DNA of 64,000 nt, from assembly GCA_038741495.1 (NCBI GenBank), contig JAVYKX010000003.1, forward strand, positions 62,001 to 126,000, written 5' to 3'. The translations under genes and the position numbers were made by a program. Positions 19,279 through 42,402 of the stretch are shown in pieces (the stretch's first letter is position 1; the number at the start of each line of letters is the position of its first letter). Under the pieces are notes generated by a model. It had not been told where the DNA came from. It ran no database searches and was given only the letters and a program-made list of their open reading frames with translations. The stretch is from Thermofilum sp. (GTDB lineage Archaea > Thermoproteota > Thermoprotei > Thermofilales > Thermofilaceae).

Positions 19279-19638
19279 TTAGAAGATGAACACGATCCTG
19301 GAGCCGAGCACAGCCGCAGCAGCGACGAGGAAGAGGACGAAGAACCAGGGCGCCATGGCGATAGCGTACACTTTAAGCTCCGAGTGCCCCTTATAGGACG
19401 AGTAGAGCACTACCGTCAAGCTCGCGAGCAGCATGTAGAGGAAGAGGTGGAACGAGAGCTTCGCGGCGAACACCGGCGCGAAAGGGGCTAGGTAGGCCAC
19501 CATGAACCCGTCGATGAAAGCTAGAGTTAGGGAAAGACCCAGCTCCACCAGCTCCTCCCGGCTCGGTCTACCGCGCCAAACCCTCAGCAGGGCAGCGGAC
19601 ATCGCGGCCAGCGAGCCAGCTAGCACAGGAATCAGCAT
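19279..19638 (-). CDS. Small membrane protein with four helices
   Basis: A 119-residue hydrophobic protein with helices at about residues 1-18, 33-55, 60-80 and 92-115, and a charged loop WRGRPSREELVELG after the first. No family recognised. ATG at 19638 is preceded by an AT-rich stretch near 19650-19670 that could hold its promoter. It lies between a possible micro-protein on the same strand and a divergent membrane-anchored regulator. Confidence 0.65.
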   Translation of the reverse strand: MLIPVLAGSLAAMSAALLRVWRGRPSREELVELGLSLTLAFIDGFMVAYLAPFAPVFAAKLSFHLFLYMLLASLTVVLYSSYKGHSELKVYAIAMAPWFFVLFLVAAAAVLGSRIVFIF

Positions 19639-19767
19639 ACGTTAAAAGTTGAACGCTGAGCTTTTTAGTCTTTTAGTTCAGAAAACCGGAGCCCTGTGCT
19701 CTCTTCCTCGGCGAAGCTGTCAGCGCTGAATGATAGACTTTATAGGGGTGGCTGCTCTCTCTCTGAC

Positions 19768-20628
19768 GTGCGCTACTGGCACGCTGCCGCTGTGGCTTCC
19801 TTTGCTCTGCTCCTTCTTCTCCTCCTCGCCCAGCGGGAGCCGGCGGTGTCGCAACCATACCTCGTGGTGGTGAGCCCGGCTGCCAAGCTCTTATCGGTGG
19901 AGGGGAACGGGTCAACCTACCTCTTCGAGGTCGAAGTCCCGCCTCTGTCGCTTCTCTCCCGAGAAAAGATCGCCTGCGTTTACGAGGCCGCTGTGGTGCG
20001 CGTCGAGAGCTCAGCCGGTGAGGCGCTCCTAGAGGGTAACTGCATCTTCCTCACCGTCCAGAACCCGGGCTTAGCCCCCCTCACCGTGAAGCTCGAAGTC
20101 GTCTCCCAGCAGGAGAGCTCGAGCGCCGAGCCGCCGGTAGCGGTGATCGCCGCGGCCGCGGCGGTCGCTGCAGCATCCTACTTGACACTGACGGAGAGTG
20201 GGCGCGAGAAGCTTTTCGCCGCTCTCTCCGTGCCCGCCGCCTACTACGTGACCAGGTACGAGGATGTGAAGCGCAGCGCGAAGCGTGTCAAGATCCTCGA
20301 GTACCTGCGCGCGAACCCAGGGGCCACTATGCGCCGCATCTCGAGAGAAGCGGGCATCAGCCTCGGCGAAGTCCAGTGGCACCTCAGCATTCTCGAGAGG
20401 CTCGGCCTGGTGCAGAGCGTGAAGATCGGGAAGTACAGCTGCTACTTCCTCACGGGCACACCTGTCGAGACCTGGCTCTCCAGCTTCGTCGAGAGGGAGC
20501 TAGGCGCCAAGATCGACGCTAGAGAGCTCGAGAAGCTGAAACCAGGGATCGAACCCCTCCTTTCGAGGAGGTCCATACCCCTCGGTGAGCTGCTGAACCT
20601 GCTGAAAGCCGGAGAGCCGAGCCGCTAG
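19768..20628 (+). CDS. Membrane-anchored winged-HTH regulator
   Basis: From GTG at 19768 the protein has 286 residues: a membrane helix (AAAVASFALLLLLLLAQ), an extracellular domain of ~100 residues with two Cys (IACVYEA, EGNCIFL), a second membrane helix (AVIAAAAAVAAASYL), and a cytosolic winged HTH (RVKILEYLRANPGATMRRI, then SLGEVQWHLSILERLGLV). The TATA CTTTATAGG at ~19737-19745 sits 27 bases before this GTG, so the longer frame from 19696 is rejected. The layout suggests a one-component sensor that reads an external signal. The secreted-protein genes downstream are likely targets. Confidence 0.8.
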   Translation: MRYWHAAAVASFALLLLLLLAQREPAVSQPYLVVVSPAAKLLSVEGNGSTYLFEVEVPPLSLLSREKIACVYEAAVVRVESSAGEALLEGNCIFLTVQNPGLAPLTVKLEVVSQQESSSAEPPVAVIAAAAAVAAASYLTLTESGREKLFAALSVPAAYYVTRYEDVKRSAKRVKILEYLRANPGATMRRISREAGISLGEVQWHLSILERLGLVQSVKIGKYSCYFLTGTPVETWLSSFVERELGAKIDARELEKLKPGIEPLLSRRSIPLGELLNLLKAGEPSR

Positions 20629-20905
20629 CAGCCGAGCATCCCGGCTCCACCCACCCTGCTTCCAGTTTGCCTGCCGAACGATTTGATCGAGTACTTCCAG
20701 CGCCCGGCACCGCCCGCAGCTCTCGGTGCTCAGCTGCAGTGACCAGGTGCCGCTGGCTCGAAGGCGCGAAGCCGGGAGGAGCCGTCCAAGGGCTGCGCGA
20801 GCCTGGAGTTCTTAGCGAGCGCCCGTGAAGCTCCACGGCTTCCCTCGAGCTCTCCACCCGGGCTCTAGGCTGCAGGCCCGGCTGCTCTCAGTTTTTTGAA
20901 CTAAA
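20629..20905. other. Intergenic region without recognisable gene
   Basis: About 280 GC-rich bases between the regulator and the first secreted-protein gene. Both strands lack a credible start with coding pattern, and I see no tRNA-like or box C/D element I would defend. A small T-run (20891-20896) precedes the promoter of the next gene. Confidence 0.5.
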
Positions 20906-20939
20906 ACTTTAATAAGAGGGTTACCCCGGCTCCTTCTCA
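20906..20939 (+). promoter_or_regulatory. TATA promoter of the secreted-protein gene
   Basis: CTTTAATAAG at about 20907-20916 has its centre about 28 bases before the GTG at 20940, so transcription should begin at or next to the start codon (leaderless). Confidence 0.6.
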
Positions 20940-21503
20940 GTGAGAAAAATGAACAGAAATGGAAGGAAACTGAGCGGCGCCGTCCTCCTGCTGGCCATAG
21001 CCTTGGCGTCCTTCGCTGCCGCAGCCATCACGATCACCAACATCACCGAGTGGAAAGTCATGGCCAAGCACCCGCCGATCGTCAAGGTCGCTGGAGCAGA
21101 CGCTCAGACCAACTACGTCGACGTCACCACCTACACGGCTGATGACGGGACGAACCGCACCGTGATCACGATCGTCGGCTTCACGGGCGACCCCACCTAC
21201 TACTCTGATCCTTTGAGGATCTGCAACAAAGATAACGTGGCTTACACCGTTAAGCTAAGGTACATGGGTACTACTGACACTGGTAACTGGCAATACGTTA
21301 AGTACCTAAAATTCTGGCTCGGCAGCAATGGTCCATCTCTGGAAGTGAAACAGGGTACGCAAATCGAAACTGAGAGCGGTGAAATCTCGCTTGACGGCGA
21401 CAGCTGCGTTGCCGTACCCGTGGAAGTGCTCGTCACACCGGACGCTCCCACCGACGAAGTCCTCATAACCGTGGAGATCGACGTAGTCTCCACTAGGTCG
21501 TAG
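20940..21503 (+). CDS. Secreted surface protein, TasA/AbpA-like candidate
   Basis: A 187-residue protein with a Sec signal peptide (KLSGAVLLLAIALASFAAAA) and a beta-rich mature part of about 160 residues. Right after the predicted cleavage site comes TITNITEWKVMAKHPPIVKV, a motif repeated at the same place in the 703-residue secreted protein at 22974. Two Cys (RICNKDN, GDSCVAV) could form a disulfide. Size, Sec signal and beta content recall TasA-like pilins, such as the archaeal bundling pilins of Pyrobaculum, but this is inference. No signal peptidase gene is adjacent. An alternative ATG at 20949 is possible. Confidence 0.65.
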   Translation: MRKMNRNGRKLSGAVLLLAIALASFAAAAITITNITEWKVMAKHPPIVKVAGADAQTNYVDVTTYTADDGTNRTVITIVGFTGDPTYYSDPLRICNKDNVAYTVKLRYMGTTDTGNWQYVKYLKFWLGSNGPSLEVKQGTQIETESGEISLDGDSCVAVPVEVLVTPDAPTDEVLITVEIDVVSTRS

Positions 21504-21565
21504 ACTGTTCTCTTCTAACCTCGACACGTTTTTCTCAAGGTTTTTCCCGCACCAGGTGAGGGTAC

Positions 21566-22972
21566 TTGTTCCGCTTAAGAAGGCCGAGAAAGTGGCTGAT
21601 CGGCGCCTTGGCTACCACCTTAGCAGCTTTTCTCGCGCTCCTCCTGCTCTACCCCCTCGGCCTGCAAGCGCTGATCCTTGGGGGGTTGAGGGACCTTGAG
21701 GTGTCTCCCCCGCAGCTCACCCTCTACTTGTCGAACCGCACGGTTTTCTGCTACGAGAAGGTGCTGGAGGTCAAGAACCTCGGCGGCTCCGGCTTAGCGT
21801 ACGAGCTTGCTTTCAGCCTGGAGGGGTCTCCGGAGTTTTTCAGCTTAGCTCTCGGGGACGAGCTTCTCCTCACCTACCGGCAAGGTAACGTTACGCAGCG
21901 AGCGCTCAAGCTGGAGCCGGGCTCTTCAGCCAGCTTGACAGTCTGCGCGAAGGCTCCCTCGCCCGGCAGCTTCATGCTGAGGGTTTTCGACCCGAGGTTC
22001 AGGGAGGCGACGGAGACCCTTATCACGTTTAGAGCGGTTGAAACGGACTGGTGGAGGAAGGAGTTCTCGAGGAGGTTGAGCCTGCTCTACACAGCCTCGG
22101 AGGAGGGTATCGCGCTGTTCGAGGTGACAGGCTTGGGGGAGGTGTATGTGAACGGGAGGCTTGCCGGCAGGGTGCACGAGCTGAGGGGTGTGGACGCTGG
22201 CAGGCTCGCGGTCGTTTACGTGAGGGGTGGGGTGAGCTACCTGCTGCCCTTCCAGGTGGAAGCGTGGGAGCGGCGCGGAGACATGGTGGTCGAGCCGAGG
22301 GGGTTGAGGAGCGGCGCTATCGGCCCCTACGATCGACTCGTCTTCGCAGCCCACGTTTCGAACGAGACCAGGGTCGATATCTACGTTGGCGGCAGGCTTG
22401 AGGAAGCTTTCCCGCCCGCAGGGCAGTTAGAGGTGGAGCGGGGCTTTATCAGCGTTGAAGGGCTGCTAGTCAGGCTCGACAGCTGCGGGTTCGCGGCGCC
22501 GGGGCTCTACGTGAACCTCTCCGGTAGAATCGCGTTCCCGTACCAGGTCCGGCTGGAGTACTACAGCGACTGGGGTGACTGGAGGCCTGTAGCGGTGGGG
22601 CCCGTGCGCGCTATCGCGGCGTTCAACACGAGCGGTCTCTCAGGCTATGCGGTGGAGGCTTTCCTCATGGTTTGGGGGTTGAAGCTGAACGTGACGCAGC
22701 TCGAGGTCTGGCCGAGGACGATCAGGCGGGGCATCGTGCTGGACTGGGCTGCACCCCTCATCGAGGCGGAGAACGCGACCGTGGAGTTGGTCTGCGGTAC
22801 TGCATGCAACTCTCTGCCTTTAAGACTGGAGCCTTGGGGTGTGAAGCTCTGCGAGGACTACTGGCAGCCTGGCGACCACCGGTTCGGCTACTTCACCCTC
22901 CTCTTCAAGTGGAGTGAGCTGGGCAGCGTTAAGAGCGTGAGGAGCAGGCTGTCCAGCTTCCCGGGTGGCTAG
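21566..22972 (+). CDS. Membrane-anchored extracellular protein
   Basis: A 468-residue protein with a basic start (MFRLRRPRKW), one membrane helix (residues ~11-35) and a long extracellular part. The first ~110 extracellular residues look like an Ig-like/COG1470-type domain (LEVKNLGGSGLAYEL; KLEPGSSASLTVCAKAP) with Cys pairs. The rest is beta-rich and unrecognised. TTG at 21566 has GGTGAGGG just upstream. The 3' end touches the start of the next secreted-protein gene, so the two are co-translated. Likely an accessory or anchor subunit for the neighbouring surface proteins. Confidence 0.7.
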   Translation: MFRLRRPRKWLIGALATTLAAFLALLLLYPLGLQALILGGLRDLEVSPPQLTLYLSNRTVFCYEKVLEVKNLGGSGLAYELAFSLEGSPEFFSLALGDELLLTYRQGNVTQRALKLEPGSSASLTVCAKAPSPGSFMLRVFDPRFREATETLITFRAVETDWWRKEFSRRLSLLYTASEEGIALFEVTGLGEVYVNGRLAGRVHELRGVDAGRLAVVYVRGGVSYLLPFQVEAWERRGDMVVEPRGLRSGAIGPYDRLVFAAHVSNETRVDIYVGGRLEEAFPPAGQLEVERGFISVEGLLVRLDSCGFAAPGLYVNLSGRIAFPYQVRLEYYSDWGDWRPVAVGPVRAIAAFNTSGLSGYAVEAFLMVWGLKLNVTQLEVWPRTIRRGIVLDWAAPLIEAENATVELVCGTACNSLPLRLEPWGVKLCEDYWQPGDHRFGYFTLLFKWSELGSVKSVRSRLSSFPGG

Positions 22973-22973
22973 C

Positions 22974-25085
22974 GTGAGGAGGCTTCTGCTGGTCTTGGCT
23001 CTGGCCCTCGCGGCCTCTGCGTGGGCAGCGGTCACGATCATGAACGTTACCGAGTGGAGGATCGTGGCTATGGAGAGCCCCCTCGTTAAGCTGGGGAACT
23101 CCTCTATCTCTCCTGTCTCGGCTTCAGGCTGGTACGTGTACAACGGGTTGAACGTGACGCGCTACAGCTTCTGCTTCATCCCCGGCTGGGAGGAGAGGTA
23201 CGATGTCGGCGCGCTAAGCCGGAGGATTCCCGTTTTGTCGGCGAGCTTGTGCCGCGAGGAGCAGGTGGGCGAGGCGAGCTATAGGATCTACCTCGGCGGC
23301 CAGCTCCAGGTATCCGAGACGCAGGTTTGCGGCCCGCCTGTCCAGCTGCCAGCCGCTCTCTCCTGGTGGACCACTGCTTCGAGCGGGTACTGGGTGCTCG
23401 CCACGGCCCGCTTCACAGTCGATAGCGTGAATGTGAAGCAGTACGTCAACTTCACCGCGAAGCCGATGACTCTGCTGAGCAGCGCGAGCTACAGCTGTAC
23501 TCCATACACGAGGAGCGACGACTTCTCAGGGGCCTGCGTGCCCGTCCAGTACACGTTTGCCGAAAGCATACCCAACAACAGGACGTACGTGACTCCAGGC
23601 GGAAGCGTTGGTATCGATCCTTACTCGGGGAATCCGAGCCCGAGTTTATACACTGAGTCGAAAAACGGCTACGCTTCCTTCTTCATTGACTACTCCTCTC
23701 GGCCGTTCAGCGCCAGCACTGGATTCAGCTTCCAGTACTTCTTCCGAGCATCGCTTCAAGATACCGACTACTTGCAGGTGCACTTCTTCATCGACCTTAA
23801 CGGTGACGGTAGACCTGACGTTGAAGTAATCTACTGGTGGTCGGGCGGCGGCACAAACCCGTACTCGATGGCCCCCGTTATCTACGGGCAGAGCCTACCC
23901 CGGGAGACCCGCCTCATCCCTGGTTTTCAGAATAAAGCTAACGTGTGGTGGACAATCACGATCAGCCAGGTGTACGCTACAGGCTACGTCGTAGGTTTAG
24001 CTTTCACTGCGTACTCCAGCCCTGGTGCCGCGAAAATTTGGTGGGATAACGTCAGCTTCACGAGGTGCGCACCCCCCTCCTACTTGGGTGCGTACGTTAG
24101 AGGGGGTGAGCACACGCTGGTCTACGTGGATCCGGTGCGCAGTCCCTCGTCACCGCCGAGCGTGGCGACGGAGGTTGACGCTTACGGCGGAACGGGCAAC
24201 CCCGCCCAGGACTACGGAGTCGCGGCCGCAGTCTACGATGTGGCAAGCTGGGGTGCTGTTCCTGCGGCAGGCTTCTCCTTCACGGTGCAGGGCCTCTACC
24301 TTAGGAACGCGACGGATGCGAGGAACAACGCAGCTTACGTTTCGGTCGGCGTTGACTCCGACGGCGATGGGTTCGCGGACGTGGAGTACATCTTCTACCG
24401 GTACGATACGGCGGACGCCGCTGGCGTCATCGTCTCGGTGCACGTCAACCGGGGCGGGGTTGTCTGCACGGTGGGAAGCGATGGGTCGTGCACACCTGCA
24501 AGCCCCTCCTTCAAGGTGTACAACCTCGGCTCCATGACCTCGGGAGGGGTGTACACGTGGAGCGGGAGCATTCCCTCAAGCCAGCAGGGAGTGGTGCTGA
24601 CCGTCGCTTTCGCCGCTGCCGATGCCAGCTACAGTGCCTCCTGCACGAGCAACGACTTCTGGGTGTGGTGGGATGATTTCTCCGCCACATACTACGTTTG
24701 CACGCCGTTCCCGGAGGGTTGGAGCGTGAGCGGCGACACGTACTACCGGAGCCTTGTGCCCGGCGCAACTGTGTACGCTGGCAACCTCTCGGGTGATGGG
24801 GGTTTCTACTTCTTCGATGGAGGCTTAAACCCTGTTTTCGGCGTGAGGAGGAGCGGGACTGCGTACTACGCTAGGTGCGGGGGGAGTGAGGTTCTGCTGG
24901 GCAGCTACCCGGGCGCCTACTGGGCTGACTTGAGGCTGCTGAGCGGAGCTTGGGAGGTGATCCTGCGCGACAGCTTCGGTGGTATGCTCGCGCGGTACTC
25001 GTGCGCACCCCTCACTGCTCCGAGCTACGTCGGCTTCAAGGGGGTCCGGAGCTTCGAGTTCAGAGCTTGGGGCTGCAGCGGGTAG
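22974..25085 (+). CDS. Large secreted beta-rich surface protein with two Ca-loop repeats
   Basis: A 703-residue protein with a short signal peptide (MRRLLLVLALALAASAWA) followed by VTIMNVTEWRIVAMESPLV, matching the mature N-terminus of the protein at 20940. Two similar units follow: each has an acidic loop of the DxDGDGxxDVE type (Asp274 region and Asp461 region) and ends with a WWDNVSF or WWDDFSA strand. That indicates an internal duplication of a jelly-roll-like domain that probably binds calcium. The last ~120 residues form another Cys-containing beta region. GTG at 22974 follows GGGTGG with proper spacing. No C-terminal anchor is visible. Confidence 0.75.
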   Translation: MRRLLLVLALALAASAWAAVTIMNVTEWRIVAMESPLVKLGNSSISPVSASGWYVYNGLNVTRYSFCFIPGWEERYDVGALSRRIPVLSASLCREEQVGEASYRIYLGGQLQVSETQVCGPPVQLPAALSWWTTASSGYWVLATARFTVDSVNVKQYVNFTAKPMTLLSSASYSCTPYTRSDDFSGACVPVQYTFAESIPNNRTYVTPGGSVGIDPYSGNPSPSLYTESKNGYASFFIDYSSRPFSASTGFSFQYFFRASLQDTDYLQVHFFIDLNGDGRPDVEVIYWWSGGGTNPYSMAPVIYGQSLPRETRLIPGFQNKANVWWTITISQVYATGYVVGLAFTAYSSPGAAKIWWDNVSFTRCAPPSYLGAYVRGGEHTLVYVDPVRSPSSPPSVATEVDAYGGTGNPAQDYGVAAAVYDVASWGAVPAAGFSFTVQGLYLRNATDARNNAAYVSVGVDSDGDGFADVEYIFYRYDTADAAGVIVSVHVNRGGVVCTVGSDGSCTPASPSFKVYNLGSMTSGGVYTWSGSIPSSQQGVVLTVAFAAADASYSASCTSNDFWVWWDDFSATYYVCTPFPEGWSVSGDTYYRSLVPGATVYAGNLSGDGGFYFFDGGLNPVFGVRRSGTAYYARCGGSEVLLGSYPGAYWADLRLLSGAWEVILRDSFGGMLARYSCAPLTAPSYVGFKGVRSFEFRAWGCSG

Positions 25086-41722: not shown

Positions 41723-41799
41723 CCGGCTGGCGAGAACCTTCTGGTCCCCGCTCTCCGAACTAAACTCTTTATATCTCTCTTAAGCGCGCTCCCAGCTGT

Positions 41800-42402
41800 A
41801 TGGGGGAAGCTAGCCCAGCCAAAGGCGTGAGGAGGGAGCTTCTGGGCCTCGTCACCTGGATCGCCCTGTACATAGTAGTCTCTGCCCTTATCCTGACGGC
41901 GCTGCCGTCCTACTTCCCGCAGCTAGCCGAACCGATCAAGGACTACTCCTCCTACATCACCATAGGGCTATCGCTGTTCTTCGGCTACATGATCGTGAGC
42001 AGTGTTGCCGGAATCCTCTACTGGTCCCTGCGCCTCCGCTACCCCCACTCCACTGCAGCAGCTGTGCGCAGCATGGTAAAGATCCTCGGTATCGGAGCCC
42101 TAGCGGCTGCTATAGCCGGCGGGGCAGCCGGCGGGGCGGCGGGAGTCGCGCTGGGCGGCTTCATAGGCATGGTGGTAGGCTTCGCTTCGCAGCAGGTGCT
42201 CGGCCAGGCGATAGCGGGCCTCTTCGTCCTCATAGCGAGGCCGATCAGAATAGGCGATAAAGTCACTGTCGCCGGGGAGACAGGAACGGTTCAAGACATC
42301 AGCACCCTCTTCACGACGATCGAGAAGGAGGACGGCACGATCGCGCTGATACCCAACAACATGCTGGTGGGCTCTAAGATCTACATTATCAGAAGGGCTT
42401 AA
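41800..42402 (+). CDS. Short MscS-type mechanosensitive channel
   Basis: A 200-residue channel. After two N-terminal helices comes the Gly/Ala-rich pore helix (AAAIAGGAAGGAAGVALGGF) and the beta domain entry VGFASQQVLGQAIAGLFVLIARP, then RIGDKVTVAGETGTVQDI and ALIPNNML, all MscS signatures. The usual C-terminal cytosolic alpha/beta domain is missing, so the protein is shorter than E. coli MscS (286). TATA CTTTATATC near 41765-41773 is about 30 bases before the ATG. It would release solutes on osmotic downshift. Confidence 0.88.
   Translation: MGEASPAKGVRRELLGLVTWIALYIVVSALILTALPSYFPQLAEPIKDYSSYITIGLSLFFGYMIVSSVAGILYWSLRLRYPHSTAAAVRSMVKILGIGALAAAIAGGAAGGAAGVALGGFIGMVVGFASQQVLGQAIAGLFVLIARPIRIGDKVTVAGETGTVQDISTLFTTIEKEDGTIALIPNNMLVGSKIYIIRRA

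Follow-up and report, generated by a model that had tools for sequence, protein, structure and literature searches.

FimH and PapG are the two-domain tip adhesins of chaperone-usher pili; FimH carries its lectin domain at the N-terminus and has a groove but lacks a strand. In the TasA class of fibres, the mature N-terminus acts as the donor strand (PMC9674648; the ABP case is cited in PMC9715654). The threads of Sulfolobus acidocaldarius are fibres of Saci_0406, and the neighbouring protein Saci_0405, which has a strand without an acceptor site, was proposed as a cap; no chaperone or usher could be assigned in the thread study (PMC9715654).

A gene cluster in a 64,000-nucleotide stretch (the window) of the 1.6 Mb genome of Thermofilum sp., a thermophilic archaeon, was analysed. 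The features were as follows.

19279..19638, minus strand: smTM, a polytopic small membrane protein of 119 aa (hydrophobic segments), divergent from the operon
19663..19679, minus strand: promoter element GAACTAAAAGACTAAAA of smTM, in the gap that separates smTM from the HTH gene (genome scan)
19696..20628, plus strand: HTHm, a membrane one-component regulator (HTH_24, E 1.2e-10; TM segments), start uncertain
20898..20914, plus strand: promoter element GAACTAAAACTTTAATA ahead of the pilin gene, at a distance that suits a leaderless GTG start
20940..21503, plus strand: AbpA-type major pilin by homology, 187 aa with signal peptide
21024..21092, plus strand: residues 29-51 of the pilin, AITITNITEWKVMAKHPPIVKVA, putative donor strand (alignment), equivalent by homology to the AbpA N-terminal strand
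21529..21545, plus strand: two T5 runs between the pilin and ANC genes (sequence)
21566..22972, plus strand: ANC, a membrane-anchored extracellular protein of 468 aa, TTG start (conservation, distant homology, fold)
22965..25085, plus strand: BIG, a secreted protein of 706 aa with a putative donor strand, candidate tip adhesin or cap (AF2 model, homologues)
23028..23096, plus strand: residues 22-44 of BIG, putative donor strand; 12/25 positions are identical in the pilin segment
23097..23525, plus strand: BIG D1, probable diverged pilin-like domain, residues 45-187 (linked through the variant proteins of L032-L034)
23526..24704, plus strand: BIG D2 and D3, tandem beta-sandwiches like carbohydrate-binding or cleaved-adhesin domains (Foldseek, VIA, duplication)
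24705..25085, plus strand: BIG D4, C-terminal beta domain (AF2 model)

The open reading frames lay where the first-pass annotation had placed them, and two starts differed. For the HTH gene, 19768 was an internal start; the frame opens at 19696 and the true start is uncertain. For the large protein, 22974 was an in-frame GTG in a frame that opens at 22965 and overlaps the ANC gene by 8 bases. The membrane-anchored extracellular protein described between the two secreted ones was recovered as ANC, with one N-terminal membrane helix (10-28) and no obvious cleavage site. The upstream membrane HTH sensor corresponded to HTHm, in which a TM segment, an extracellular beta region and a second TM segment are followed by a winged HTH (195-253). 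A phage origin of the cluster was considered and set aside; the phage records searched gave no match.

The pilin matched 7ueg_A (AbpA of P. calidifontis) over residues 14-183 of 187 with an E-value of 2.8e-20 (phmmer, PDB); the next PDB matches were nanobodies at 0.017 or worse. Its sequence places the pilin in the AbpA family, as a new member homologous to a solved archaeal bundling pilin. This nearly full-length homology supported the earlier reading of a TasA/AbpA-type filament, and neither homologues of unrelated function nor folds lacking an exchangeable strand were found. The Peptidase_M73/camelysin Pfam model (PF12389) gave no match in the genome, despite the clear AbpA homology of the pilin. 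Homologues of the pilin occurred in 22 of 61 related genomes. A profile search of the phylum matched 37/397 genomes, and strong matches were confined to families f1 and f9, the latter of which includes Pyrobaculum. C95, C156, N34-x-T36 and N72-x-T74 were conserved in the alignment. The hydrophobic signal segment (residues 14-32) is followed by AAITITNITEWKVMAKHPPIVKVAG; a Sec-type signal thus leads straight into a strand segment that aligns with AbpA. From this homology we infer that the pilin polymerises by donor-strand exchange like AbpA. Several Pyrobaculum genomes (loci L041, L042, L047 and L050) carried two adjoining, diverged pilin paralogues, some of them divergently transcribed. In family f13 (L055 5612-6004, L127, L128, L129, L133 and L134), frames of 112-148 aa matched only the pilin core (about positions 75-172) and had no N-terminal strand.

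The pilin and BIG have in common the segment A-A-[IV]-T-I-x-N-[IV]-T-E-W-[KR] ... P-[IL]-V-K. In BIG, a hydrophobic signal segment (residues 7-25) is followed by AAVTIMNVTEWRIVAMESPLVKLGN, and the motif that the first-pass annotation had noticed directly after both signal peptides was borne out. Among 52,455 25-mers, drawn from stop-free stretches of at least 60 aa in all six frames of the window, the BIG segment scored 76 against the pilin segment and the runner-up 24. Shuffled versions of the BIG segment (20,000 shuffles) scored at most 33. With the pilin as query, a search of the complete genome found only the pilin and BIG (BIG E=1.5e-7). The strand shared by the two proteins is not a product of chance. 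Across 17 genomes the two strands were identical at 7-14 of 25 residues (28-56%); N and K were identical between pilin and BIG in 17/17 genomes, and P in 16/17. Since the strand was kept while the cores of D1 and the pilin almost lost their similarity, it appears to be under its own constraint, and these sequences suggest that it was retained to fit the pilin groove. Within a clade, pilin-BIG strand pairs from one genome were hardly better matched than cross-genome pairs (permutation p=0.05), and at this value such matching was dropped as proof of co-evolution. Residues 24-37 of BIG, within the putative donor strand, had a pLDDT below 50 in the AF2 monomer model.

The whole BIG model had a mean pLDDT of 86. 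D2 and D3 are duplicates of each other (hhalign 2.6e-40). Together they matched a CBM22 tandem (Foldseek 8.6e-8); the VIA structure comparison gave matches with Z of 11-13, and their folds resemble CBM22 tandems, CBM11/16/30, MAM and gingipain cleaved-adhesin domains. BIG had no match to a Pfam or NCBIfam family and no sequence match to a CBM family; the likeness to CBMs is one of fold only. The tandem carries DxNGDGxxD-type loops, in which D464, G469, D472 and E474 were invariant in 13 sequences; the loop sequence suggests calcium binding. The 7ueg/TasA fold was absent from the listed Foldseek and VIA matches of whole BIG, a list filled by matches of D2/D3. The nature of D1 was approached through L032-L034, where proteins of 454, 528 and 656 aa at the BIG position had the same head and different C-terminal modules, one carrying DUF2341. 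Without strand and signal, these variant heads matched the BIG head at 4.3e-9 and the pilin cores at 1.8e-6, against 0.13 or worse for D2-D4 decoys (hhalign; single-pair E-values from thin alignments). The direct comparison of D1 with the pilin, without the strand, was weak (E 0.003, probability 10%; hhalign). Because the variant heads match both pilin cores and the BIG head, the head of BIG is most likely a pilin domain that has diverged. The C-terminal modules are swapped in three Thermofilum species behind a constant pilin-like head, as is expected of adhesins. In G003, a free-standing 128-aa ORF equivalent to D4 (G003:C2:1474176-1474556, downstream of L033 6476-8062) adjoined a variant tip protein that is without D4.

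These observations bear on what BIG does. Rather than a second bulk pilin, the large protein is probably a terminal subunit with adhesin-like domains. It is highly improbable that the shared motif is merely an N-glycosylation sequon (N-x-T) after the signal peptide, serving glycosylation or peptidase recognition without strand exchange. N34-x-T36 is indeed nearly invariant among pilins, but the likeness runs on through TEW and P-x-V-K, several BIG proteins lack the sequon (NIA in L034, NVV in L042, NPV in L050) and keep N, P and K, and the pilin is an AbpA homologue. A pilin-like D1 also raises the question of the acceptor side: TasA-type subunits normally have a strand plus a groove, and if D1 has such a groove, BIG could sit inside the fibre. 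Incorporation of BIG along the length of the fibre, as a minor or alternative pilin and not as its terminal cap, is nevertheless unlikely. The D1 core, unlike the strand, has become almost unrecognisable as pilin; a low copy number is suggested by the position of BIG as a single gene downstream of T-runs; and tightly bundled fibres would leave little room for its large C-terminal domains. The CBM-like domains, together with the BIG-like frames of about 1175-1224 aa at other Pyrobaculum loci, would also suit a surface protein, binding polysaccharide or associated with the S-layer, that stems from a duplicated pilin and stands outside the pilus, its strand being a relic or serving self-complementation. 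This explanation is less probable still, since conservation of the strand exceeds that of the remaining pilin-like domain, and BIG and pilin are co-located, co-occur and have the same promoter element.

The main reading, to which we give a probability of about 0.6, is that the cluster makes an AbpA-type (TasA-superfamily) bundling pilus, with BIG as terminal cap or adhesin, ANC at the membrane and HTHm in control. After Sec export and trimming by the general signal peptidase, pilins would join as the mature N-terminal strand of each enters the groove of the subunit that follows. At the end of the chain that gives a strand, BIG would fill the empty groove of the first pilin; there it may nucleate or cap the fibre, as proposed for TapA or Saci_0405, and display its CBM-like domains as an adhesin. 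ANC is placed at the membrane end because it is the sole extracellular component with a membrane anchor; it would accept the last free strand or hold subunits before assembly. BIG is placed at the distal tip, and not at the base, only because the anchored part is ANC. HTHm would sense an extracellular signal and control the cluster, probably via the TGAACTAAAA element beside the TATA box. A promoter of its own and the T-runs behind its gene would hold the pilin in excess over ANC and BIG. A SipW-like signal peptidase, proposed earlier as something to look for, was absent from the cluster; the whole genome gave one TIGR02228 match, a general archaeal signal peptidase on another contig (G000:C1:1072-1419).

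The cluster promoter element is TGAACTAAAA-nn-TTTATA. With at most one mismatch, element plus TATA had three sites genome-wide: before the pilin gene, smTM and an MscS-like gene at 41800. The last of these, GAACTAAA..TTTATA at 41757-41773, precedes the gene 41800-42402 for an MscS-like small membrane protein (named from sequence only). In the relatives G001 and G006, the sole three perfect genomic copies of the element precede the pilin, ANC and BIG. Upstream of 30 cluster genes in seven loci, 17 hits were found against about 1.3 expected from the frequency of the core in the same loci. The pilin promoters of Pyrobaculum (L045, L041 and L051) had a different element, an AACGTT palindrome (CAACGTTG) that directly precedes the TATA box (AATATTTAA). 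The winged HTH of HTHm is probably cytoplasmic because it comes after the second hydrophobic segment, and homologues of HTHm occurred in the pilus clusters of both families (cross-family hhalign 2.1e-19). As a guess, HTHm reads the TGAACTAAAA element. Beside the cluster, smTM was kept in L032 (60%) and L035 (56%), and it has the promoter element in Thermofilum sp., L032 and L035. Its match to the small TM protein of the Pyrobaculum cluster was weak (hhalign E 0.014), and smTM is a candidate membrane component of the pilus. Runs of T5 or longer were present in the pilin-ANC gap of 7/7 Thermofilaceae loci; from their sequence, they may act as a leaky archaeal terminator that gives excess pilin and lowers the expression of ANC and BIG.

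The gene order was HTHm-pilin-ANC-large protein in Thermofilaceae; at L033 no HTHm was detected upstream. The typical order in Pyrobaculum was pilin, a 410-aa anchored protein, small TM proteins, HTHm and the large protein. G031 was taken as P. calidifontis because it encodes the 204-aa protein of PDB 7ueg; at its locus (L045), the HTHm and large-protein genes overlap by four bases. The pilin, ANC, BIG and HTHm thus recur together in Thermofilum relatives and are rearranged at the P. calidifontis abpA locus. BIG-type large proteins were found in 22/81 genomes of the class, some mainly through the N-terminal segment, and also in a Calditenuaceae genome; BIG was almost confined to genomes that also have the pilin. 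Pyrobaculum BIG-like proteins, open frames of 1175-1224 aa, also lay at other loci away from the pilin (G034:C1:1276379, G028:C1:1176887, G056:C1:1485681 and G031:C1:1255824).

ANC was conserved in 7 Thermofilaceae genomes. It matched the 410-aa protein after P. calidifontis abpA by profile comparison only (hhalign E 1.5e-7, 94% probability). In the structure model, residues 41-160 form an Ig domain of PapD/ASH/MSP-like fold with a pLDDT of about 90, and residues 281-450 were mostly without a reliable model. The Ig domain matched the pilus chaperones YadV (Z 9.5, rmsd 2.6, 95 aligned), CFA/I chaperone (Z 9.2, rmsd 2.4, 94 aligned), CfaA (Z 8.8, rmsd 2.6, 94 aligned) and PapD (Z 8.4, rmsd 2.8, 96 aligned). 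These matches would fit a role for ANC not as pilus anchor but as a membrane-tethered PapD-like chaperone that lends pilins a strand ahead of their assembly. Such a role is rather doubtful: ASH/SPD-2/hydin domains matched better (Z 10-11.5), so that the fold is generic; the PapD likeness covers the first domain and none was seen for the second; and TasA is published as assembling without an usher-type pathway. ANC had no Pfam match, and its likeness to PapD stands at fold level for one domain only. A wider proposal, put forward only tentatively, is that the cluster is a complete assembly kit, with a FimH-like tip adhesin of reversed polarity and exchangeable modules, a PapD-fold chaperone or anchor, and a regulator with its own element. 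If true, a chaperone-assisted donor-strand system would have evolved here independently of the bacterial chaperone-usher pathway. Under the preferred reading of a capped AbpA-type pilus, the cluster gives testable candidates for the tip, base and regulator of archaeal donor-strand fibres, and the exchange of adhesin modules would account for the way in which such archaea adjust their binding to surfaces or polysaccharides.

The pilin is of a known kind, and the tip and base components appear undescribed in the literature found, as does their combination with such a pilin and a membrane regulator; the AbpA paper (PNAS 2022, doi 10.1073/pnas.2207037119) may note some of the neighbourhood. Like Bacillus subtilis TasA/TapA, the Thermofilum cluster would combine a donor-strand fibre with a minor protein that has the donor-strand sequence in common with the main subunit (TapA; PMC9674648, PMC10151520). 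It differs in that it has no SipW and includes a regulator in the membrane and a partner anchored there; unlike TapA, BIG is large and has CBM-like domains. The Saci_0406 threads are likewise archaeal donor-strand fibres with a neighbouring strand-bearing cap candidate, but the thread pilin is described as independently evolved (PMC9715654), and Saci_0405 consists of the pilin fold alone, without adhesin-like domains or a predicted Sec signal. As in FimH/PapG, a pilin-like domain is fused to sugar-binding-type domains, presumably at the end of a donor-strand fibre. In contrast to FimH, BIG has a strand and C-terminal adhesin-like domains, and no usher-like gene was recognised in the cluster. 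The closest system is that of P. calidifontis AbpA, which has a homologous pilin (residues 14-183) with the same donor-strand segment. The order there is abpA-410 aa-small TM-HTHm-BIG, compared with HTHm-pilin-ANC-BIG in Thermofilum; the promoter element is another one, and the Thermofilum fibre is predicted from its genes. In both, homologues of HTHm, ANC (distant) and BIG stand beside the pilin gene, and P. calidifontis, where these genes adjoin abpA, is a cultured species with solved fibres.
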